DNA of 51,359 bases, taken from positions 1 to 51,359 of the forward strand of contig CAJXZV010000003.1 in assembly GCA_913063835.1 (NCBI GenBank), read 5' to 3'. Positions within the stretch are counted from its first letter, which is position 1. Each line of letters starts with the position of its first letter. Below are positions 1-44,597 of this stretch, piece after piece. The DNA comes from an uncultured Eubacteriales bacterium. Its GTDB lineage: Bacteria > Bacillota > Sulfobacillia > UBA995 > UBA9673. The notes under the pieces were generated by a model, which was not told the DNA's origin, ran no database searches, and saw only the letters and a program-made list of their open reading frames with translations. Made by a program: the position numbers and the translations under genes.

Positions 1-615
1 CCCGGGCCCCTCGGTGACGGGGATGCCTCCTCCCCCGGAGGCGATGACCACGACACCGCTCTCGACCAGGGCCCGGATCTCGTCTCTCTCGACGATGCGG
101 ATGGGGTCGGGCGAGGGGACCACCCTGCGCCACTGGCCGGCACGGACCTCTCTCATGACCCATCCCCGTTCGGCCGCGAGGGCCTCGGCCCTGGCCGCCG
201 GATAGAAGGGCCCTACGGGCTTGGTGGGATTGTCGAAGGCGGGGTCGGCCGGGTCCACCACGACCTGGGTCACAAGGCTGACGACACGAGGGTCGCGGCC
301 GCGCGAGAGGAGTTCGTTGCGCAGGGCCTGCTGGATCATGTACCCGATGAGTCCCTGGCTCTCCGCACCGCAGATGTCCAGGGGCATGGCCGGGACCTGT
401 TCGGCGCCCTCCTCGTTCTGGATGAGGATGTTCCCCACCTGCGGACCGTTGCCGTGCGTGACAACGACCCGGTGGCCCATCTCGATGAGGGAGACGATGG
501 CGCCGGCCGTCTGGGCGATGTTGGCCCTCTGCTCCTCCGCCGTCCCCCTCTGCCCGGGCTGGAGTATCGCGTTCCCCCCCAGAGCGATGACGACCGTTTC
601 ACCTCTGGGTTGCAT
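1..615 (-). CDS. arcC: Carbamate kinase, 3' end cut off by window edge
   Basis: Hand translation from 615 downward: [70 protein letters not shown]...[16 protein letters not shown], with characteristic [15 protein letters not shown] and SGGGGIPV motifs; open to the window edge so missing from the ORF track. Confidence 0.93.
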
Positions 616-674
616 CTCATCCCCCGTTCCCGTTCCGGACCGTTCCCACCTGCCCGTCCCCTGCGACGCCGGGC

Positions 675-1685
675 TCACCGGTCCCTTATGTTGACCCCCC
701 TACCGCATCTACGGCACTTCCTCCCTTCGAGTTCCATCCGCCGGGCCGAGAAACCTCGTCTCGAGACCAGGACCGCGCCGCAGGACGGGCAGGCCGTGTC
801 TGCGGCATCGACCTCCCAGGCGTTGCCGATGTAGACGTAAGACAGGTGCCGGGCGGCGATGTCTCTGGCCCGCCTCAGGGTCTGGACGGGTGTCTCGGGG
901 CGGGTCATCTTCCAGTTGGGGAAGTAGCGCGACAGGTGCAGGGGTATTTCCGGGGAGATGCCCGCCAGCCACTCAGAGAGGCGTTCGACCTGGTCGTCCC
1001 CGTCGTTGAGGCCCGGGATGATGAGACAGGTGACCTCGACATGACACCCGGCCGCATGGGCGGTCTCGACCGTCCGGAGGACCGGCTCGAGGCGGCCGGA
1101 GCAGACCTCCCTGTAGAACTCTGTCGAGAAGGACTTCACGTCGACGTTCATGGCGTCGACATAGGAAAGCAAGTCCTTGAGGGGCTCTTCCCGCACGTAG
1201 CCGTTTGTCACGAGCACGTTCTTCAGGCCGCGCTCCCGCGCGAGTCTCGCGGTGTCGAGGACGTACTCGAACCATACGAGAGGCTCGCTGTAGGTGTAGG
1301 CCAGCCCGATGCACGGCCGCTGCGGGTCGCTCCACGCGGCGGCCGTCTCGACCGCCCTCTCAGGCGGGAACGGGACGTCCTCACCGTCGCCCTGTGACAG
1401 CTCCCAGTTCTGGCAGTGTCGGCAGCGCAGGTTGCAGCCGTAGGCCCCGAGCGAGAAGATGTAGGTGCCAGGGTGGAAGTGGTAGAGGGGCTTCTTCTCC
1501 ACGGGGTCCATGGCGTAGGAAGCCACGCGGCCGTACTTCACGGCCACGAGGACACCGTCCTGGTTCCTGCGGACCCGACAGAACCCGACCTTCCCCGGAC
1601 GGATCCGGCAGTCCTGGGGGCAGAGGAGACAATGGACGACATCCCCTTCGAGCTTCTCGTAGTAGTCGGCCTCCCGCATCCACAC
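675..1685 (-). CDS. amrS: AmmeMemoRadiSam system radical SAM enzyme
   Basis: [12 protein letters not shown] (CxxxCxxC) motif, N-terminal [10 protein letters not shown]...GFC cysteines, C-terminal CPSCG...CRRCG; adjacent to MEMO/AMMECR1 gene. Confidence 0.92.
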
Positions 1686-1782
1686 CCCTCCCGCGGTGTG
1701 CGGGCCCGAGCGCTACGGGCCCGAGTCACGGCCCCGACCGGGTCGCCCGCCGCACCGGGCACGCTCCCCGCCCCGGCGTCTC

Positions 1783-3264
1783 TCAGCGGTAGCGTGTCAC
1801 CCTGAACCGGAAGAGCCGCACCCCGGACTCGCCCGGGCTTATCCCCGCCTTCTGCATGGCGATCCTTACCTGGTCCTGGACCGTGTCGACGCCCTCAAGG
1901 TCGGGCAGGAGAAGACCGGTCCGGTCCCCCTTGGTGACGATGACCCCGTAGACCGCGGGGTCCAGTTCGTCGACCCCGGAGACCGGTTCCGGAGGCTCGA
2001 GGACGTCCACGGAGTACTCGAGGTCGCCCAGTTCGTCCTCACGGACGGGGGGGAACCTCGGGTCGGACGTCCCGGCCTGGATGGCGTTCCTGACGATCTC
2101 CTCGGCGAGGTTCGGGGCGGTGGGCTGGATGGTCCCGATGCATCCCCGGAGCTGCCCCCCCTTCTTGAGGGACACGAAAGCGCCGGCCCGGCGGTCGAGG
2201 CCGGGGCTCGAGGCCGGCGCCGAGATGCGCCGCCCTTCACGCACGTACGTCTCCAGCGAGAGACGGGCCAGGCGCACGAACGGGTGTGGCGCCTGGTCCC
2301 GACCGGCCGCCGTCCGGCCGCCGCCCGGCTCCAGCCCCGGGTCCTCTCCGTCCTGTCCGGGGCCTTCCGTCTTCCCCTCCGCCTTCCCCTCCGCGGGGGC
2401 GGTCCTCCCACCGCCGCCTGGAGCCTCCAGACGGGTGTTCCTCGGAAGGAAGGTGGCCACGGCGTACCCGACGCCGAAGGGGCCCTCGTAGGAGAGGACC
2501 TCGGGCACGACGTCGAGGCCGTCGAGAGCGCCGAAAAGGGTCAGGATGGGGCCGAAACCGCACTCGCCCGCCCGCTCGACGAGTTCGGGGTCCATCTCCA
2601 GCAGGGCCTTGACGTCGGCTCGGGCGAGGGCGTCGACGACCCTCCGGTCGAAGATGCGGCCCATCGGGTCGTAGCCGGCAGGAGCGCCCTCGGTCAGGCG
2701 GTGAGAGAGGTCACCGCTGGCCACGTAGACGATGCGCACCCCGAGTTCCACGGCCGCCGCCTGGACAGCCTGGCCGAACCGGTAGAGCTCCTCCCGTCGG
2801 AGGGGGCCGACGGCACCCGCGACGAGCCGGCACTCGAGCCCGGCCTCGGTGAGGTAGTGGAGCGGGACGAGGACGGCGTAGTGCAGCCTGTCCGGAGGGC
2901 GGAAGCTCATCTTGTCCGCGTCAGGGGTGAAGACGGTGACCTTCCTCCGGGCGGCTTCCTCTCGGATGCGGTCGACCAGCCGGAGGTCGTTGCCGAAGCG
3001 GAGGGACGTGCCGGCGATGCCGAACTCGCGGAAGTTCCCCTGCAGGAGAGGGCTTGCCAGGAGCGTCACCGCGTTGCGGACCACCGGACCGTGCGGGGCG
3101 ATGACGACGACCGTGTCGGGTCTGATGTCCCGCACGAGGGCGGCGACCCCCTGGAGAGCGCTCCGGGTCTTCACGACCTGGTCGAGGTCCTTGTCACCGA
3201 TCTCCGGAACGATGATGGGCGCGTGCGGGGACAGCACCCCGAGGACGATTCCTGCTCGAGCCAT
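1783..3264 (-). CDS. Fused MEMO1-like (N-terminal) and AMMECR1 (C-terminal) protein
   Basis: MEMO-like [16 protein letters not shown]...VVIAPHGPV...[18 protein letters not shown]1-like [45 protein letters not shown]; joined by a Gly/Glu-rich linker. Confidence 0.93.
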
Positions 3265-3271
3265 GACGCGC

Positions 3272-4429
3272 TCACTCCCGGACGTCCCCGACGTGGACCT
3301 TGACCACGTCGGGCGATGTCGAGGCCTGCAGGAGGCAGGCGTAGTTCACCAGGAACCCGACCTCCTCACCGACGGAAAGGCGGCCGGGGTAGTCCTCGAT
3401 GTCGAGCACGAGGTGGTCGCTGGTGGCTCCCACCACCTCGATGCCGCCGGCGAGCGGTTTCAATCCCTCCGGAACGATATCCTGCCTTCCGGCCGCGACG
3501 ACGGCGCGGAGGCGGAGGCCCCTGTCGACGAAGACGGGACGGCGGCCGAAGGCGTCCTCGGCGAGCTCGCCGACCGGAGCGCTCGGCTTCTTGCGTATCT
3601 CGATGATCCGGGCCCAGAAGGTGACCGCATCGAGGTGACACCCGGGAAGGGGCTCCCGGCGCAGACTGTCCCGCCCGAGGACGATGCCCTCACCGACCCG
3701 GAGGTCGTGCAGGCCGTCCGGGAGGCGCTCTCCTCTCACCAGGAGGGGAAGGACCGCCGTGTTCCCGGCCGACACCCTGAGAAGCCGCCCCAGGCGCTCA
3801 CCGGTCTCCCGGGCCAGGGTCAGAAGGTGTTCGAGGTGCTCAGGCGTCGGGACCACTCCGGAGAAGCAGGCCATGTTCGCGGCCAGGCCGGCGACGTGGG
3901 CCCGCCGCGAGGGGTCGCTCCGGCCCGCGGCCCGGGCCATCCGCTCCTCGAACTGCACGGCCGCATCGGGGACCTCCTCCGGCAGGAATCCTTCCCTCAG
4001 GTCTCCGAAGTCGACGGTCAGGAGCACCTCGTAGGGCCGGTCAGGCCCGGTCGCCCTGGCGAGACTCTCCGCGACCTCGAGGCTCGCGCACAGGACGCCG
4101 TCGGAAAGGGCCACCGCCGCCGGGGCGTCGGCCGGGGAGGGCTCCCGGAGAAGAAGGAACGGGACCCTCCGGTCCGCCGTGCCGCCCGCGCCTACGCCGC
4201 GCAGGGCCTGCAGGCGGCGGAGGTTCGACAGGCGGGAGTCGGCCAGGCCCGCCGCCCCCCCGGCCAGGAAGGCCCGGGCGACCGCCGGGTCGCCTCGGAG
4301 GACCTTGGTCACGGCGTGGAGCTCGAGGCCGGCCGCACGGCAGCACCCCGCCAGGGCCCGCGTGTTGGCGGCCAGCTTGACAAGGTCGATCTCGAGTCTC
4401 GGCGCCGGTGACGTCGACGTCGGTGCCAC
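3272..4429 (-). CDS. Alanine/ornithine racemase-family PLP-dependent enzyme
   Basis: [14 protein letters not shown]...[18 protein letters not shown]...[15 protein letters not shown]...[12 protein letters not shown]...[24 protein letters not shown]; start uncertain (ORF open to 4597; GTG at 4429 chosen before the conserved domain). Confidence 0.75.
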
Positions 4430-4663
4430 TGCGGCCGGTTTCCTCCCAGACACACGGCCGCCCCGGGTCGTCGGCTGCAGAGCGCCCCGAGGACGGCCAT
4501 GACGCAAGACCTGTCGAAGACCGGGGGAAGGGGCCTCCGGTCCCGACATCCCATTCCATTCTACCCGAGTCAGGTCCTCACCTTCGGCGGCCGCCACCCG
4601 CCCGCCCGGCGGCCCGGAACCTCCGGGGGCGGGGCCGCCGGGAAGAGCCGAGGTCCGGGCGGT

Positions 4664-5509
4664 TCAGGCCGTGCCGGGCGGCGGCTGGTGGACGAAGCGG
4701 CAGATGCCGAAGAAGATGGCCATGGCGATGAGGTGCTGGTAGTCCGGGTCCTGCAGGAGCGCGAGGTCGCGCGGGTTGGACAGGAAGCCCATCTCGACGA
4801 CGACGGCGGGAGCGTCCGTCTCTCTGATAAGGAAGATGTCCTGGCGCCCGTTGGGCTGCCGGTCGGTTTCACCGGTGACCCGCACGAGCTCGCCCTGGAT
4901 GGCTTCAGCGAGGAACCTGCCGCCGGGGTGCGCCCCGGGCATGTAGAAGGTCTGGGCGCCGCGCCAGACGCTGGAAGGGAAGGAGTTGCAGTGCAGGGAG
5001 ACCAGGAGGTCGGCCCCGGCCCGCTTCACCGCCTCGACCCTCCGGATGAGCTCCGCCCGAACGGCCGAGCCGTGGCGCTGCGAGTCCCCCGGCTGGAGAA
5101 GGTCGCGGTCCTCGGTCCTCGTCAGGAAGACCTCGGCCCCGGCCCGGACGAGGATGTCGCGGAGTTTCAGCGACACAGCCAGGTTCAGGTCGGCCTCCAC
5201 CACGCCGCTGTCGGTGATCACGCCGGGGTCGAAGCCGCCGTGACCGGGGTCGATGGCCACGACGAGGCCGGACAGGACGCCTGTGACGGGGACGACCGGA
5301 CCGTCGGGCAGCCAGGCGGCGCCGAAAGCCGCAGCCACAGGGCCGCCGGCCAGAAGCCACCCCACGGCGGCCACCCCCAGGAGCAGGGCCGCACCCAAGG
5401 CCGCAGGGGTCGACGGGGAGGCCAGGCCTCGCGAACCGGTGATGCGGGTCGGCCGCTCGGCTGCGGCTGTCGCCCCGGCAGAGGCCCTCGGCCCCGCTCG
5501 ATGAGGCAT
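4664..5509 (-). CDS. cwlD: N-acetylmuramoyl-L-alanine amidase (Amidase_3), CwlD-like
   Basis: VVAIDPGHGGFDPGV...LVSLHCNSFP...VVVEMGFLSNPRD; position after rpsI as in other Bacillota. Confidence 0.85.
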   Translation of the reverse strand: MPHRAGPRASAGATAAAERPTRITGSRGLASPSTPAALGAALLLGVAAVGWLLAGGPVAAAFGAAWLPDGPVVPVTGVLSGLVVAIDPGHGGFDPGVITDSGVVEADLNLAVSLKLRDILVRAGAEVFLTRTEDRDLLQPGDSQRHGSAVRAELIRRVEAVKRAGADLLVSLHCNSFPSSVWRGAQTFYMPGAHPGGRFLAEAIQGELVRVTGETDRQPNGRQDIFLIRETDAPAVVVEMGFLSNPRDLALLQDPDYQHLIAMAIFFGICRFVHQPPPGTA

Positions 5510-5673
5510 TCGGCTCCATCCTCCCGCCGCCCGCTCCGGGTAGGCCTCTGGCCGCCCCGAAGCCTCTTCCGACCATTCGTATGTCGGGTCGGAGCGGACT
5601 TAGCACATCGGCGACCTGTCGGCGGGACGGACGGAGGGCGTCGACCGGAGACGGCTCCGTCTCTGGCGCCGCC

Positions 5674-6105
5674 TCACCTCTTGGAGAACTGCGGGGCCTT
5701 GCGGGCCTTCTTCAGCCCGTACTTGCGGCGCTCCTTCATCCGCGGGTCCCGCGTCAGAAGGCCGGCCTTCTTGAGGATGGGTCGGTAGTTCTCGTCGACC
5801 AGGAGCAGGGCCCGCGCGATGCCGTGCCTGATGGCCCCGGCCTGCCCGGACATCCCCCCGCCGCTCACCCGGACGATGACGTCGAACCTGTCGTCCAGAT
5901 GGGTGAGGCGGAGCGGGAGGGTGAGCGAGTCCCGGAGCATCGGCGTCGGGAAGTAGTCGTCGACGGGCCTGCCGTTGACGATGATCCGTCCTTCGCCAGG
6001 CACCAACCGTACACGAGCGACAGACGTCTTGCGCCGGCCGGTACCCTGGTACTCGACAGAACGCTGGGTGAGAGTCGTCGCCACCGCTGCCGGCACCACC
6101 TTCAC
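5674..6105 (-). CDS. rpsI: 30S ribosomal protein S9
   Basis: [27 protein letters not shown]...[25 protein letters not shown]. Confidence 0.97.
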
Positions 6106-6530
6106 AGTTCGAGTTCCTCGGGTTGCTGCGCTTCGTGGGGGTGGACCGGGCCGGCGTAGACCTTGAGCTTCTTCGCCATGGCCCGCCCCAGGCGGTTGTG
6201 CGGCAGCATCCCGCGGACGGCTATCTCGATGACCCTTTCAGGCCTCGTCTGCATCATCCGGCGGAAGGTGGTCGTCTTCAACCCGCCCGGATAGCCGGAG
6301 TGCCGGTAGTAGAGCTTGCCTTCGGCCTTGTCTCCGGTGACGACCACCTTGTCGGCGTTGATCACGATGACGTAGTCCCCTGTGTCAAGAAAGGGGGTGT
6401 AGGTGGGCTTGTGCTTGCCGCGCAGGATGGCGGCGATCCGGCTGGCCAGACGGCCCAGGGTCTTGCCCTCGGCGTCAACGACGTACCAGCGTCTCTGTAT
6501 CTCAGAAGGTTTGGCCACGTACGTCCGCAT
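6102..6530 (-). CDS. rplM: 50S ribosomal protein L13
   Basis: [29 protein letters not shown]...[32 protein letters not shown]. Confidence 0.97.
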
Positions 6531-7492: not shown

Positions 7493-8310
7493 CCGGGCCA
7501 CCACCTGAGGCCGATGACCACGGCCGCCATGAATCCCGTCAGCGCGGCGGCCGCCGCGTCGAGAGCGGTGGCCCGGAGGCGGTTGAGCCGGGTCCGGTGT
7601 CTTCCCCCCCGGTAGCACCTGGCCTCCATCGCTGTGGCCAGCTCGTCCGCGCGGCGGAAGGCCGAGACGAAGAGGGGGACCAGGAGCGGAACGAGGCTTC
7701 GTATGCGCCGCGAAAGGCTCCGGCTCTCGAAGTCGGCACCGCGAGCCATCTGGGCCTTCATGATCTTGTCGGCCTCTTCCATCAGCGTCGGGATGAAGCG
7801 CAGAGCGATGGTCATCATCATGGCCAGCTCGTGGGCCGGCAGGCCCACGACGCGGAACGGGGCCAGGATGCTCTCGAGGCCGTCCGTCAGGGACACGGGC
7901 GAGGTGGTGAGGGTGAGGAGAGAGGCCATGACAAGGAGCAGGAGCAGCCTGGCCACCATGAACAGGCCCATCCTCAGGCCCTCCCACGAGGCCACGAGGG
8001 GCCCGAGGGTGAACATGGTCCGGCCCGGGGTCAAGAAGAGCTGGAGCGTGAAGGTCAGCACAAGAAGGATGAGGACCGGCCGGAGGCCCCGGAGAAGCAT
8101 CCTCGCCGGGACACGGGCGAGGTGGACGGCAAGGACGGTGAAGGCCGTCAGCGTGGCGTAGGCGGCGGCGTCCGTCGCGGCGAACAGGACCACCATGAAG
8201 ACCCCCACGATGGTTATCTTCGTCCTGGGGTCGAGCCGGTGCACCACCGAGGAGCCGGAGAGGTACTGGCCGATGGTGATGTCTCTAAACATGGACAAGC
8301 CCGGCGTCAC
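7489..8310 (-). CDS. ecfT: ECF transporter transmembrane T component
   Basis: IGQYLSGSSVVHRLDPRTKI, hydrophobic segments, MAMEARCYRGG-like TAMEARCYRGGRHRTRL; follows ecfA1/ecfA2. Confidence 0.92.
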   Translation of the reverse strand: MTPGLSMFRDITIGQYLSGSSVVHRLDPRTKITIVGVFMVVLFAATDAAAYATLTAFTVLAVHLARVPARMLLRGLRPVLILLVLTFTLQLFLTPGRTMFTLGPLVASWEGLRMGLFMVARLLLLLVMASLLTLTTSPVSLTDGLESILAPFRVVGLPAHELAMMMTIALRFIPTLMEEADKIMKAQMARGADFESRSLSRRIRSLVPLLVPLFVSAFRRADELATAMEARCYRGGRHRTRLNRLRATALDAAAAALTGFMAAVVIGLRWWPG

Positions 8311-9220
8311 CCTCCCGTCCGGAACCGGCGCGGCGCGGCCTGCCCGCCCTGATCCACTGGTCGATCTCCTCGGCCGCCTCCCTCGGGCTCAACCGGGAGA
8401 CGTCGACCTGAGCCCCCCTGGCGGCCAACGCGTGCATCAGGGCGACGACGGGTGGTGCGTCGAGTCCCAGGCGGCGCAGACTCTCCGGGTCCCGGAAGAC
8501 TTCACGGGTCGGACCGTCCAGGATGAGGCGTCCCTGGTCGAGGATGATGACCCTGTCCACGAGAGCGGCGAGGTCTTCCATGTTGTGGGAGACGACCACC
8601 AGGGTGAGCCCCCATCTCCGGTGCAGTCTCGAAAGTGTCTCGAGTAGTTCGAGCCGCCCGCGGGGGTCCAGGCCCGCCGTCGGTTCGTCGAGGACGAGGG
8701 TGGCGGGTCTCATGGCCAGGACCCCGGCGATGGCCACCCGCCGCATCTGGCCCCCCGAAAGGCTGAAGGGGGACCTCCGCCCGAGAGCCTCGGCCTCGTC
8801 CTCGGGGACACCGACCATCCTCAGGGCGACGGTCACACGGCGTCGGACCTCCTCCTCGGGCAGGCCGAGGTTGCGCGGGCCGAAGGCGATGTCGTCATAG
8901 ACGCTCTCCTCGAAGAGCTGGTGTTCGGGGAACTGGAAGATGAGGCCGACCTTCCGCCTGACCTTGTGCAGGTCCGCGGTCCTCGGACCGTCCTTCTCCC
9001 GGGGCCACAGGTCCTCTCCGTCGATGAGCACCCGGCCCGACGTGGGCCTGAGAAGACCGTTGAAGTGCTGGATAAGGGTCGACTTGCCGGAACCCGTCGG
9101 GCCCATGATGCCGACCGTCTCACCGTCGTCTATGCGCAGGCTGACCCTGTCGACGGCGACGACGGCGCGTTCTGTCCCAGGCATGTAGACATGGGTGAGG
9201 TCGACCGTTTCTATGGACAT
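8285..9220 (-). CDS. ecfA2: ECF transporter ATPase A2
   Basis: Walker A GPTGSGKST, SLSGGQMRRVAIAGVLAM, LVLDEPTAGLDPRGR. Confidence 0.92.
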   Translation of the reverse strand: MSIETVDLTHVYMPGTERAVVAVDRVSLRIDDGETVGIMGPTGSGKSTLIQHFNGLLRPTSGRVLIDGEDLWPREKDGPRTADLHKVRRKVGLIFQFPEHQLFEESVYDDIAFGPRNLGLPEEEVRRRVTVALRMVGVPEDEAEALGRRSPFSLSGGQMRRVAIAGVLAMRPATLVLDEPTAGLDPRGRLELLETLSRLHRRWGLTLVVVSHNMEDLAALVDRVIILDQGRLILDGPTREVFRDPESLRRLGLDAPPVVALMHALAARGAQVDVSRLSPREAAEEIDQWIRAGRPRRAGSGREGDAGLVHV

Positions 9221-10050
9221 AGGAAGTCCACCATGGCCTCCAGGGTGAGGACGGACGGAGGGATAGGGTGGCCGGCCTCTTCCAGGAGGCGGCGGACGCC
9301 GACGATCTGCGGCACCCCGAGCCCGATGCCCTCCAGGAAGTCCACCTCGCTGAAGACTTCCTCCGGACGCCCGTCCATGACGAGGTGTCCCCGGTCGAGG
9401 ACCACGACGCGGTCGGCCAGGGCCGCTTCCTCCATGAAATGGGTGATGAGGACGACGGTGAGACCTTCGTCCCGGTTGAGGCGGCGAACGGTCTGGAGGA
9501 CCTCGCGCCGCCCCCTGGGATCGAGCATGGCCGTCGCCTCGTCGAGGACCAGACAGGCGGGTCTCATGGCCAGCGCGCCGGCGATGGCCACCCGCTGCTT
9601 CTGGCCTCCGGACAGGAGATGCGGGGCGTGGCGGGCGTAGTCCTGCATCCTGACGAGGGCGAGGGCTTCGTCCACCCTACGCCGGATCTCCTCGGGTGGG
9701 ACCGCGAGGTTCTCCGGGCCGAAGGCCACGTCCTCCTCGACCACCGTGGCCACGATCTGGTTGTCGGGGTTCTGGAAGACCATCCCCACCGTCTGCCTGA
9801 TGGACCAGTGATGGTCAGGGTCCCGGGTGTCGAGGCCGTTAACGGTCACGCGGCCCTCGGTTGGAAGCAAAAGGGCGTTCAGGTGCCGGGCGAGGGTGGA
9901 CTTGCCTGAACCGTTGGGCCCGATGACGGCGACGAACTCCCCTTGTGCGATGCGAAGGTCCACACCCTCGAGGGCGGTGACCTCCTGCTCCGTCCCCGCT
10001 CCGTAGCGATGTCCGAGACCACTGGTCACGATGAGATCGTCAGGCGGCAA
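9211..10050 (-). CDS. ecfA1: ECF transporter ATPase A1
   Basis: Walker A GPNGSGKST, LLSGGQKQRVAIAGALAM, LVLDEATAMLDPRGR; start uncertain (TTG at 10050 chosen, ORF open to 10209). Confidence 0.9.
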   Translation of the reverse strand: MPPDDLIVTSGLGHRYGAGTEQEVTALEGVDLRIAQGEFVAVIGPNGSGKSTLARHLNALLLPTEGRVTVNGLDTRDPDHHWSIRQTVGMVFQNPDNQIVATVVEEDVAFGPENLAVPPEEIRRRVDEALALVRMQDYARHAPHLLSGGQKQRVAIAGALAMRPACLVLDEATAMLDPRGRREVLQTVRRLNRDEGLTVVLITHFMEEAALADRVVVLDRGHLVMDGRPEEVFSEVDFLEGIGLGVPQIVGVRRLLEEAGHPIPPSVLTLEAMVDFLCP

Positions 10051-10563: not shown

Positions 10564-11517
10564 CTACTCCTCAGGCTCGGCCAGGCTGAGATCGAGTTCG
10601 GCCAGCTTGGCCTTTACTTCCTCGAGTGATTTCTTGCCGAGGTTCCGGACCTTCATCATCTCGGCCTCGGTCTTGGAGATGAGTTCACCGACCGTGTTTA
10701 TGCCGGCCCGCTTGAGGCAGTTGAAGGACCTCACCGAGAGTTCCAGCTCCTCGACGGGCATGTCGAGGATACGGTCCCGCTCCTCCTCACCGGCGTCGGC
10801 CAGGAGCTCCACCCCCTGACCCTGCTCGGTGAGCTCGGTGAAGAGGAGCAGGTGTTCGGTCAGGATCCGGGCCCCCAGGCTCACGGCTTCCTCCGGGGCC
10901 ATGGTGGCGTTGGTCCAGACCTCGAGGGAGAGCTTGTCGTAGTCGGTGATTTGCCCCACCCGGGTGTCCTCGACGGTGAAGTTCACGCGCCGCACAGGCG
11001 AGAAGATGGAGTCGACCGGAATCACCCCGATGGGCTGCTCCGGCCACTTGTTCCGTTCGGCCGGAGCGTAGCCGCGCCCGCGCTCGACGGTCATCTCCAT
11101 GTAGAGCCGACCGTCCTTGTCGAGCGTCGCGATGTGGAGGTCGGAGTTGAGGATCTCGATGTCCGCCCCGGCGATGATGTCGCCGGCCTTGACCTCCTGC
11201 TCCCCTTCGGCCTCCACCCGCAGGATACGCAGGTCGTCGGGGCCGTGCATCTTGATGCAGAGCTGCTTGAGAGCCAGGATGATGTCTGTCGTGTCCTCCA
11301 GCACGCCCGGGATGGTCGAGAACTCGTGAAGCACCCCGTCTATCTTCACCGTCGTCACGGCGGCTCCGGGCAACGAGGAGAGGAGGACCCGCCTGAGCGA
11401 GTTGCCTAGAGTCGTCCCGTAGCCGCGCTCAAGCGGCTCGACCTCGAACCGGGCGTAGGTGTTGTCCTCGGAGCGGTCGACACACACGATCCTCGGCTTC
11501 TCGATGGTCAGCATCAA
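10564..11517 (-). CDS. rpoA: RNA polymerase alpha subunit
   Basis: [32 protein letters not shown]-terminal [39 protein letters not shown]. Confidence 0.98.
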
Positions 11518-26642: not shown

Positions 26643-27845
26643 CTACTCGATGATGGACGTGACGACACCGGCGCCGACGGTCCGTCCGCCCTCACGGATG
26701 GCGAACCTGAGGCCTTCCTCGATGGCGATGGGGGTGATGAGCTCGACCTCCATGTTCACGTTGTCGCCCGGCATCACCATCTCCACGTCCTCCGGCAGCT
26801 TGATGGTCCCCGTCACGTCCGTCGTCCGGAAGTAGAACTGCGGGCGATACCCGTTGAAGAACGGCGAGTGACGCCCACCCTCTTCCTTGGTCAGAACGTA
26901 GACCTGCGCCTTGTACTTCGTGTGCGGCTTGATCGAGCCGGGCTTCGCCAGGACCTGCCCCCGCTCGACCTCGTCCTTGTCGATGCCGCGCAAAAGCACC
27001 CCGATGTTGTCCCCGGCTATCCCCTCGTCGAGGATCTTCCGGAACATCTCCACCCCGGTCGCCACCGTCTTGCGCGGCTTGTCCATCAGCCCGACGATCT
27101 CGACCTCGTCCCCGACCTTCACCCGGCCGCGCTCGACCCGGCCCGTCGCCACCGTCCCGCGACCCGTGATGCTGAACACGTCCTCCACAGGCATCAGGAA
27201 CGGCTTCTCCGTGTCACGCTCCGGCGTCGGGATATACTCGTCGACCGCGTCCATGAGCTCGAGGACCGACTTGCACCACTCGCACTCCGGACGGCCGCAC
27301 CCGCACTCCAGAGCCTTCAAGGCCGACCCCTTCACCACCGGGATCTCGTCGCCCGGGAACTCATACTTGCTCAGTAGCTCCCGTACCTCGAGCTCCACCA
27401 GCTCCAAAAGCTCCGGGTCGTCCACCATGTCCGTCTTGTTCATGTAGACCACCATCGCCGGCACCCCGACCTGCCGCGCCAGGAGAATGTGCTCCCGCGT
27501 CTGCGGCATGGGCCCGTCCGCCGCCGACACCACCAGGATCGACCCGTCCATCTGCGCCGCCCCGGTGATCATGTTCTTCACGTAGTCCGCATGACCGGGA
27601 CAGTCGACATGCGCGTAGTGCCGCTTCTCCGTCTCATACTCCACGTGCGCCGTGTTGATCGTGATACCCCGCTCACGCTCCTCAGGCGCCTTGTCGATCT
27701 CGTCGAACGGCACATACTCCGCCTGGTCCCTCTTCGACAAGACAAGCGTGATCGCCGACGTGAGCGTCGACTTCCCGTGGTCCACATGACCGATCGTCCC
27801 GATGTTCACATGCGGCTTCGTGCGCTCGAACTTCTTCTTGGCCAT
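26643..27845 (-). CDS. tuf: Elongation factor Tu (copy 1)
   Basis: [32 protein letters not shown]...[20 protein letters not shown]...NKTDMVDD; Cys-rich insertion [11 protein letters not shown]. Confidence 0.99.
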
Positions 27846-41843: not shown

Positions 41844-42605
41844 TTAGAGCTTCTCTACCTGGCTGAAGTCGAGTTCCACAGGGGTCTCCCGGCCGAACAT
41901 CGACACGGACACCCTGAGCTTACCCTTGTCGAGGTTGATCTCCTTGACCTTTCCGATGAACCCCATGAACGGTCCGCTGATGACCTTGACGCTCTCCCCG
42001 CGTTCATAGATGACCTTCGGTCTGGGCTCGTCAACCCCCATGTGCCGCAGGATGCTCCGGACCTCGCTCGGCTCGAGCGGCACGGGCCTCGTGCCGGAGC
42101 CGACGAACCCGGTGACGCCTGGGGTGTTGCGGACCACGTACCACGAGTCGTCGTTCATGACCATTTCCACGAGAACGTATCCCGGGAAGATCTTCTTCTT
42201 GCTGATGAGCTTCCGGCCGTCCTTGTACTCGATCTGGTCCTCGGTGGGGACGATGATGCGGAAGATCTTGTCCTGCATCAGCATGGACTCGATCCGCTTC
42301 TCGAGGTTCTTCTTGACCTTGCCCTCATAGCCCGAGTAGGTGTGGACCACGTACCACTTCTTCTCGGGATGGTCGGGGTGAGCCTCGCCGCCGCCTTCCT
42401 CTTCTTCCTGTTCTTCCTGGGCCTCGGCGGCGGTCTCGGCGGCACGGTCATCCTCGTTGTCTCCGCCGTCCTGCCCGGGCCGGTCCGCCTCCGTCGGGTC
42501 TGCAGGTTCGTCCTCCACCACGGACGGAGTGTCGCCGGTCGCCGCGGCGGTGCCGGTGGACCTCAAGACGGTGTCCTCTTCGCTACCGTTTCTTTCCGTA
42601 GGCAT
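41844..42605 (-). CDS. nusG: Transcription termination/antitermination protein NusG with acidic N-terminal extension
   Basis: [27 protein letters not shown]...[30 protein letters not shown]...[33 protein letters not shown] start at 42605 chosen. Confidence 0.95.
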
Positions 42606-42664
42606 TCTCAAGGGGCCCGAAGGCCCCTCACCTCCAGCACGGCCCCGCCCGGCTCCCGGACCGC

Positions 42665-42874
42665 TCAGGCCCCGAAGAGAAGCAGGGAGAGCCCGGTGCT
42701 CAGAATCGTATCCACGACCCAGATCATGGCCGCGACGATGGTCACCGAGATGACGACCACCCCGGTGTAGACGACGGTCTGTCTCCGGTCGGGCCAGACC
42801 ACCTTCCGCAGTTCCGTCCTCACTTCGCGCAGGTATCGCCCCACCCGCGCCGGCAGAGACCTGAGCCAGTGCAT
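42665..42874 (-). CDS. secE: Preprotein translocase subunit SecE
   Basis: VGRYLREVRTELRKVVWPDRRQTVVYTGVVVISVTIVAAMIWVVDTIL. Confidence 0.95.
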   Translation of the reverse strand: MHWLRSLPARVGRYLREVRTELRKVVWPDRRQTVVYTGVVVISVTIVAAMIWVVDTILSTGLSLLLFGA

Positions 42875-42899
42875 ACGCCAACCACGCCCCGAATTTTAA

Positions 42900-42976
42900 T
42901 GGCAGGCCCGGAGGGACTCGAACCCCCAACATGCGGTTTTGGAGACCGCCGCTCTACCCATTAGAGCTACGGGCCT
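42900..42976 (-). tRNA. tRNA-Trp(CCA)
   Basis: AGGCCCGTAGCTCTAATGGGTAGAGCGGCGGTCTCCAAAACCGC...GGGTTCGAGTCCCTCCGGGCCTGCCA; cloverleaf by eye, CCA encoded. Confidence 0.95.
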
Positions 42977-43394: not shown

Positions 43395-44597
43395 CTACTC
43401 GATGATGGACGTGACGACACCGGCGCCGACGGTCCGTCCGCCCTCACGGATGGCGAACCTGAGGCCTTCCTCGATGGCGATGGGGGTGATGAGCTCGACC
43501 TCCATGTTCACGTTGTCGCCCGGCATCACCATCTCCACGTCCTCCGGCAGCTTGATGGTCCCCGTCACGTCCGTCGTCCGGAAGTAGAACTGCGGGCGAT
43601 ACCCGTTGAAGAACGGCGAGTGACGCCCACCCTCTTCCTTGGTCAGAACGTAGACCTGCGCCTTGTACTTCGTGTGCGGCTTGATCGAGCCGGGCTTCGC
43701 CAGGACCTGCCCCCGCTCGACCTCGTCCTTGTCGATGCCGCGCAAAAGCACCCCGATGTTGTCCCCGGCTATCCCCTCGTCGAGGATCTTCCGGAACATC
43801 TCCACCCCGGTCGCCACCGTCTTGCGCGGCTTGTCCATCAGCCCGACGATCTCGACCTCGTCCCCGACCTTCACCCGGCCGCGCTCGACCCGGCCCGTCG
43901 CCACCGTCCCGCGACCCGTGATGCTGAACACGTCCTCCACAGGCATCAGGAACGGCTTCTCCGTGTCACGCTCCGGCGTCGGGATATACTCGTCGACCGC
44001 GTCCATGAGCTCGAGGACCGACTTGCACCACTCGCACTCCGGACGGCCGCACCCGCACTCCAGAGCCTTCAAGGCCGACCCCTTCACCACCGGGATCTCG
44101 TCGCCCGGGAACTCATACTTGCTCAGTAGCTCCCGTACCTCGAGCTCCACCAGCTCCAAAAGCTCCGGGTCGTCCACCATGTCCGTCTTGTTCATGTAGA
44201 CCACCATCGCCGGCACCCCGACCTGCCGCGCCAGGAGAATGTGCTCCCGCGTCTGCGGCATGGGCCCGTCCGCCGCCGACACCACCAGGATCGACCCGTC
44301 CATCTGCGCCGCCCCGGTGATCATGTTCTTCACGTAGTCCGCATGACCGGGACAGTCGACATGCGCGTAGTGCCGCTTCTCCGTCTCATACTCCACGTGC
44401 GCCGTGTTGATCGTGATACCCCGCTCACGCTCCTCAGGCGCCTTGTCGATCTCGTCGAACGGCACATACTCCGCCTGGTCCCTCTTCGACAAGACAAGCG
44501 TGATCGCCGACGTGAGCGTCGACTTCCCGTGGTCCACATGACCGATCGTCCCGATGTTCACGTGCGGCTTCGTGCGCTCGAACTTCTTCTTGGCCAT
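43395..44597 (-). CDS. tuf: Elongation factor Tu (copy 2)
   Basis: Protein identical to copy 1 in the ORF track; DNA near-identical. Confidence 0.99.

Follow-up and report, generated by a model that had tools for sequence, protein, structure and literature searches.

The AmmeMemoRadiSam proteins (TIGR04335, TIGR04336 and TIGR04337) occur in both bacteria and archaea, with MEMO1 and AMMECR1 as their human relatives; a literature search turned up no description of a reaction for the set. The oxidative degradation of ornithine in Clostridioides difficile proceeds through racemisation, an amino shift, dehydrogenation and thiolysis to acetyl-CoA, and involves an operon of ord, ortA, ortB, oraS, oraE, or4 and orr (PMC8803604). 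Genes of both systems are found side by side at the left end of a contig of 51,359 bases (C3), the whole of which was analyzed (hereafter, the window), from an uncultured Eubacteriales bacterium represented by a metagenome-assembled genome (MAG) of 2.30 Mb (G000; 181 contigs, 93% complete). Read along the minus strand, the genes at this end follow the order rplM-rpsI-cwlD-orr-amrBA-amrS-arcC, and the locus is probably the remaining 3' half of a fermentation cluster for arginine and ornithine, placed within a conserved Bacillota block of rplM-rpsI-cwlD-amrBA-amrS, the Amr proteins most likely being independent of it. A first-pass annotation of the window, made from its letters alone, had recognized a racemase, a MEMO-AMMECR1 fusion, AmrS and carbamate kinase as co-directional genes following cwlD; in Pfam and NCBIfam profile searches, by which genes of the window were identified, all five genes were matched well above chance and are co-directional as claimed, on the minus strand.

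The evidence for a larger ancestral cluster is drawn from relatives. These comprised 20 stretches fetched from the class (L031 to L050), in which recurring neighbors were established by an all-against-all comparison, together with surveys of 151 genomes of the class and 200 genomes of the phylum; approximately half of the GTDB species were sampled, the genomes are mostly MAGs, the families are phylogenetically dependent, and the loci were taken with limited flanks. A gene missing from a MAG counts for little as evidence, the or-4 scar described below being the exception. At the site in question, relatives of the window possess the order cwlD-ord-ortA-ortB-oraS-oraE-or4-orr-amrBA-amrS-arcC-OTC (OTC, ornithine transcarbamylase), which is to say a D-ornithine oxidative-degradation operon with the same genes together as in C. 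difficile (PMC8803604). In a representative, L046, the order is cwlD-ord-ortA-ortB-oraS-oraE-or4-orr-amrBA-amrS-OTC followed by a gene for a cyclic-diphosphoglycerate-synthetase-like protein; its Ord, OrtA, OrtB, OraE and Or-4 each reach or exceed the NCBIfam equivalog cut-offs (NF040739, NF040740, NF040741, NF040743 and NF040744), and its OraS matches PF16552. Directly after amrS, arcC is found in 15 genomes of the class belonging to 11 families, commonly with OTC next. The arcC/OTC and Amr genes at the end of the cluster set the window lineage apart from the C. difficile operon and are not found there in most other taxa.

Of this operon, the window retains only orr and a scar of or-4. None of ord, ortA, ortB, oraS and oraE is located between cwlD and orr, where only 234 bases separate cwlD from the likely start of orr. 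Genome-wide family searches of the G000 assembly found neither OraE (best match of 22.8 bits against a cut-off of 800) nor OrtB (best match of 55 bits, of the threonine-synthase type, against a cut-off of 550), while the result for oraS, ord and ortA covers the interval between cwlD and orr and not the whole genome. The scar (positions 4430 to 4609, minus strand) is a decayed 3' piece of or-4, a GlmL-related gene of ornithine degradation. In one frame, GGRVAAAEGEDLTRVEW matches GRVAVAEGKDLTEVEW of the relatives' Or-4 (tblastn, best E 2e-9), a second frame continues with VGTGGPFPR and a third contains MAVLGAL, an internal stretch having been deleted between. The scar is 83% identical in DNA over 48 bp to a segment of L032 within its or-4, and its local DNA score of 126 compares with maxima of 86.5 for 200 other segments of the window and 81 for 200 shuffles. 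The segment ord-ortA-ortB-oraS-oraE-or4 has been lost from this site, leaving a remnant of its last gene beside an intact orr.

An assembly artefact, or a mixture of strains within the MAG, is a highly improbable source of the missing ord-or4 stretch. G000 is fragmented, as its contig number and completeness indicate, and a contig end falls inside the cluster itself; however, wrongly joined sequences would not carry at their joint a piece of or-4 from which a part is deleted and the rest legible in three frames, and OraE and OrtB are also missing from the rest of the assembly. The three other genomes of the same family all encode both OraE and Orr, and in a phylogenetic tree the window Orr groups with those of the family, as sister of that of L031; the loss is therefore, as far as the sampling goes, confined to the lineage of the window. 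Backbone support in the Orr tree was poor, and for this reason no count was made of how often the orr-amr linkage arose independently. Orr without detectable OraE was encountered in eight of the 151 class genomes, one of which, G115, has kept or-4 beside orr and looks like a second, partial loss of the pathway. Elsewhere, positions 11193 to 13049 of L159 (genome G335, 94% complete) hold ortA-ortB between cwlD and amrBA, with no match to OraE in the genome; this pair represents a further vestige, again partial, of the ornithine operon.

The intact cluster of the relatives would convert citrulline to ornithine with the formation of ATP (OTC and carbamate kinase), whereupon Orr would racemize L-ornithine to D-ornithine. 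The latter would be rearranged to 2,4-diaminopentanoate by OraSE, a radical mutase dependent on B12 and pyridoxal phosphate (PLP), and then degraded by Ord and OrtAB to acetyl-CoA and alanine. The ancestor of the window's family presumably possessed the whole cluster, while the window lineage would be unable to run the oxidative ornithine pathway any more, and its Orr may either serve another purpose now or be a recent orphan.

What remains of the other end of the cluster is the N-terminal two thirds of carbamate kinase, encoded by arcC (positions 1 to 615, minus strand; TIGR00746, E 4e-83, model positions 2 to 196 of 309). Its score of 279 bits is below the cut-off of 358, the gene being cut at base 1 by the contig end, and full-length orthologs at the same place in relatives pass the cut-off. 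Translation would begin either at GTG 678, overlapping amrS, or at ATG 615, 59 nt after it. As the window is a whole contig that ends inside arcC, the cluster is truncated, and the notion that orr, amrBA, amrS and arcC constitute a complete, self-standing system was rejected since they are cut off by the contig end on one side and by the deletion on the other. The presence of arcC, adjoined by OTC in relatives, is reminiscent of the arginine deiminase route (arcA-arcB-arcC); the difference lies in arginine deiminase itself, which was not found in the window genome (best match to TIGR01078 of 28 bits against a cut-off of 489). With argC also not found in this genome (best match E 1e-10), an arginine route passing through the locus is not apparent.

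A further protein accompanies the cluster in relatives. Downstream of arcC/OTC, 17 of the 20 class stretches encode a P-loop/CobW-like protein of approximately 440 amino acids (L046, positions 5137 to 6516, and equivalents; cluster c0), which none of the NCBIfam models matched and which bears weak similarity to cyclic 2,3-diphosphoglycerate synthetase (PDB 9sxb, E 1.6e-6). It is also found beside ora operons that stand elsewhere (L191:4749, L192:4805 and L194:4729), and is possibly an unrecognised member of the ornithine/arginine cluster.

The Orr-like protein of the window (positions 3272 to 4429, minus strand) is a PLP-dependent racemase of fold type III that matches NF040742 with an E value of 8e-80. 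Its score of 268.5 bits is below the curated cut-off of 480, which is strict, as orthologs of the class within complete operons miss it too (for example, 399 bits for that of G087, from the operon of L046). The first-pass annotation had the open reading frame begin at 4597, a start that does not hold: this position is inside the or-4 scar, the match to NF040742 begins at residue 66 (base 4402), and residues 1 to 65, overlapping the or-4 remnant, are not those of a racemase. The likely start is GTG 4429, judging from the putative ribosome-binding site GGGAGGAAA upstream of it. Among solved structures, the Orr profile is closest to YhfX and alanine racemases (PDB 4kbx and 5yyc), whose N-terminal barrel, including the region of the PLP-lysine, was aligned with it; the similarity is nevertheless weak (E about 1e-10), coverage is partial and the substrates are other ones.

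The window thus provides an example of operon loss in which the racemase of the first step is intact, and the condition of this racemase bears on whether it serves, or has come to serve, a purpose other than the D-ornithine pathway, such as the provision of D-ornithine or another D-amino acid for the cell wall or for signalling. Such a use is possible, albeit doubtful. The orr reading frame is intact and, beyond the scar, is provided with a start codon and a ribosome-binding site of its own; in a comparison with 23 relatives, no conserved or invariant residue of Orr was found changed; and the ratio of unique changes between G000 and G002 is the same in orr (23:15) as in three neighboring genes (64:42; Fisher p=1). 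The retention of Orr in the eight class genomes lacking detectable OraE is likewise consistent with an outside use, but part of these absences may be gaps in MAGs. Furthermore, the loss of the pathway may be too recent to show in Orr, the terminal branch of Orr in the protein tree is longer for G000 (0.32) than for G002 (0.20) while amrBA shows the opposite, the NCBIfam cut-off for Orr is missed, and the substrate cannot be read from sequence. Relaxed selection on Orr following the loss of the pathway, although hinted at by the branch lengths, was not found in the comparison of unique changes.

Downstream of orr, amrBA (positions 1783 to 3264, minus strand) begins only 7 nt after the end of the racemase gene (stop at 3272), the spacing given by the first-pass annotation, and is followed after 97 nt by amrS (675 to 1685, minus strand). 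AmrS is the radical S-adenosylmethionine (SAM) enzyme of the AmmeMemoRadiSam set, scoring 331 bits against the TIGR04337 cut-off of 220. Its CX3CX2C motif at residues 84, 88 and 91 is accompanied by Cys19, Cys22, Cys26 and Cys36 and by Cys299, Cys302, Cys324 and Cys327, and all 11 Cys residues are invariant among 69 sequences. The amrBA product is a fusion of two domains, recognized by Pfam, NCBIfam and a structure model. The AMMECR1 half (residues 330 to 491; positions 1792 to 2277) carries the motif LRGCIGT and matches both PF01871 (E 2e-46) and TIGR04335 (128.6 bits against a cut-off of 99), with Arg373, Gly374, Cys375 and Gly377 invariant in 52 sequences. The other half (residues 10 to 269; positions 2458 to 3237) is of the LigB, or class III extradiol-dioxygenase, type (PF02900, E 2e-36, 125.6 bits). 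An AlphaFold model of the protein (mean pLDDT 87) has two folded domains joined by a disordered linker (residues 282 to 323).

AmrS and the AmrA portion hence conform to the described AmmeMemoRadiSam system, with an AmrB-type domain fused to AmrA and encoded beside AmrS, but the AmrB half differs from it in being LigB-like: it scores 24.9 bits with the MEMO-type TIGR04336, just under the cut-off of 26, and has no match to the Pfam Memo model. The best structure matches in the PDB were TK2203 (TMt of 0.84), aminophenol dioxygenase (0.76) and AMMECR1 proteins, that of MEMO1 being weaker (0.54), and MEMO1 was not retrieved in a sequence-profile search of the PDB. Human MEMO1 binds iron through H49, H81 and C244, with the Cys in place of the Glu of the dioxygenases (PMC11081632). 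AmrB shares with MEMO1 the class III dioxygenase fold; its His14, His58, His188 and Cys235 are invariant in 52 of 52 sequences, but it is Glu234 (present in 92%), not the adjacent Cys235, that aligns with the dioxygenase Glu. The first-pass assignment of this half as MEMO thus calls for correction, and a straightforward orthology to MEMO1 was rejected. Fusion is one of two architectures, as amrB and amrA are separate neighboring genes in L050 (positions 8109 to 9426; genome G017), L185 (5807 to 7154) and L187 (5756 to 7133). By inference, the radical SAM enzyme acts with or on the AmrBA fusion, and the presumed metal-binding, dioxygenase-like domain, the AMMECR1 domain and AmrS, acting together, would most likely have an independent job.

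Whether AmrBA and AmrS belong functionally with the ornithine genes was approached through linkage, counted by script in class and phylum from gene positions in the search tables. Within the class, orr and amrS co-occur in 47 of the 151 genomes and are within 6.5 kb of each other in all 27 genomes, from 11 families, that carry both on one contig; with amrS-arcC adjacency as frequent as noted above, the neighborhood survey proposed in the first-pass annotation thus revealed a conserved Orr-amr-arcC linkage. The p-values for co-occurrence are very small, but these tests ignore relatedness. Among the 200 phylum genomes, AmrS is above its cut-off in 147; orr is within 4 kb of amrS, with orr-amrBA-amrS spacing, in 13 genomes from seven families outside the class, and the two genes share a contig at distances of more than 90 kb in five more. 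A second association is with arginine biosynthesis: in 50 of the phylum genomes, from 28 families, argC is found no farther than 10 kb from amrS, and 40 loci outside the class (L131 to L170) show the order rplM-rpsI-cwlD-amrBA-amrS-argC-argJ-argB-argD, with cwlD present in 25 and argC in 20; the part from cwlD to argD, often followed by carB or argF, occurs in about half of these loci. No description of this link was found in the literature.

The order cwlD-amrBA-amrS is itself a Bacillota arrangement that also occurs without any ornithine gene, and in the clostridial Geosporobacter, Anaerosolibacter and Petromonas without arginine genes nearby. Among 80 named Orr loci, most neighbors are of the ornithine pathway (or-4 in 52, oraE in 44) and amrBA is nearby in 11; AmrS exceeds its cut-off in 39 of the 50 named genomes that have Orr, its gene being beside orr in seven and elsewhere in 32. 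These observations are consistent with the position of AmrBA and AmrS at this locus reflecting chiefly, or at least in part, an old cwlD-amrBA-amrS order next to which arginine and ornithine genes would have settled. Accordingly, a link to D-ornithine/arginine metabolism, as hypothesized in the first-pass annotation, finds support for the racemase and arcC, both part of a known catabolic cluster in relatives, but is not shown for the Amr genes with their older gene order and separable modules; and the term under-described system can be retained for the Amr part only, the ornithine pathway itself being broken in this genome.

Several observations weigh against this explanation. Where an ora operon lacking orr stands elsewhere in the genome (L191/G376, L192/G286, L193/G009 and L194/G367, the last as far as its contig goes), orr has stayed before amrBA at the cwlD site, and in the 13 genomes outside the class orr directly precedes amrBA; both point to something beyond passive synteny. 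Ornithine genes also accompany Amr in rearranged orders, as with amrS-ord-ortAB-oraSE-arcC in G027 and cwlD-oraSE-or4-amrBA-amrS-OTC in G045, and Orr shows no clear sign of the decay to be expected of a plain orphan. A functional coupling of AmrBA and AmrS to ornithine/arginine metabolism, by which they would serve in the maturation, repair or control of one of its enzymes or would have a derivative as their substrate, would account for the retention of orr with amr, for the linkages across 11, seven and 28 families, and for the company of biosynthetic and catabolic arginine genes alike. Such a coupling is nonetheless unlikely: the association is seen in a single phylum, the AmrS loci of non-Bacillota phyla having unrelated neighbors; AmrS is common in the phylum anyway; the genomes are not phylogenetically independent; cwlD, for which we know of no tie to arginine, is an equally good neighbor of amr; and each module occurs without the other, G006 having orr, oraE and arcC without AmrS, and G010 and G017 having Amr-arcC-OTC without orr or oraE. 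In its most specific form, with AmrBA and AmrS as a metal/radical maturation or modification system for a protein or product common to the synthesis of arginine and the degradation of D-ornithine, the proposal is distinctly improbable, though it would explain the repeated association in Bacillota with orr, ora, arcC/OTC and argCJBD. A role of Amr in ornithine/arginine metabolism is best regarded as a testable lead, based on correlation within one phylum, and not as the demonstration of a new system. The habit of the Amr genes of standing between cwlD and arginine or ornithine genes provides a concrete context for testing the function of the set, and natural separations (G006 on the one hand; the window, G010 and G017 on the other) demonstrate that each module can exist without the other and point to informative comparisons.

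The remaining genes at this end of the window serve mainly to anchor the synteny. The N-acetylmuramoyl-L-alanine amidase gene cwlD (positions 4664 to 5509, minus strand; PF01520, E 6e-45; TIGR02883, E 5e-55, 186 bits, below the cut-off of 221.6) is the anchor upstream of either amrBA or ord in relatives, and is preceded by rpsI and rplM (5674 to 6530, minus strand), the end of a ribosomal-protein block with orthologs (tblastn) in the same order in relatives. A promoter scan of positions 1 to 6000 returned none, and the few terminator-like matches in this region are not at the relevant gene ends. No riboswitches or other Rfam families besides tRNAs were found in the window or in the stretches of five relatives. 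Further along, the rpoBC/str block lies between two tuf genes (26643 to 27845 and 43395 to 44597, minus strand) whose profile scores are identical, a usual arrangement of duplicated tuf. The nusG reading frame (41844 to 42932, minus strand) begins far upstream of its domain (residues 193 to 362) and overlaps tRNA-Trp (42900 to 42976); its true start is internal to this frame.

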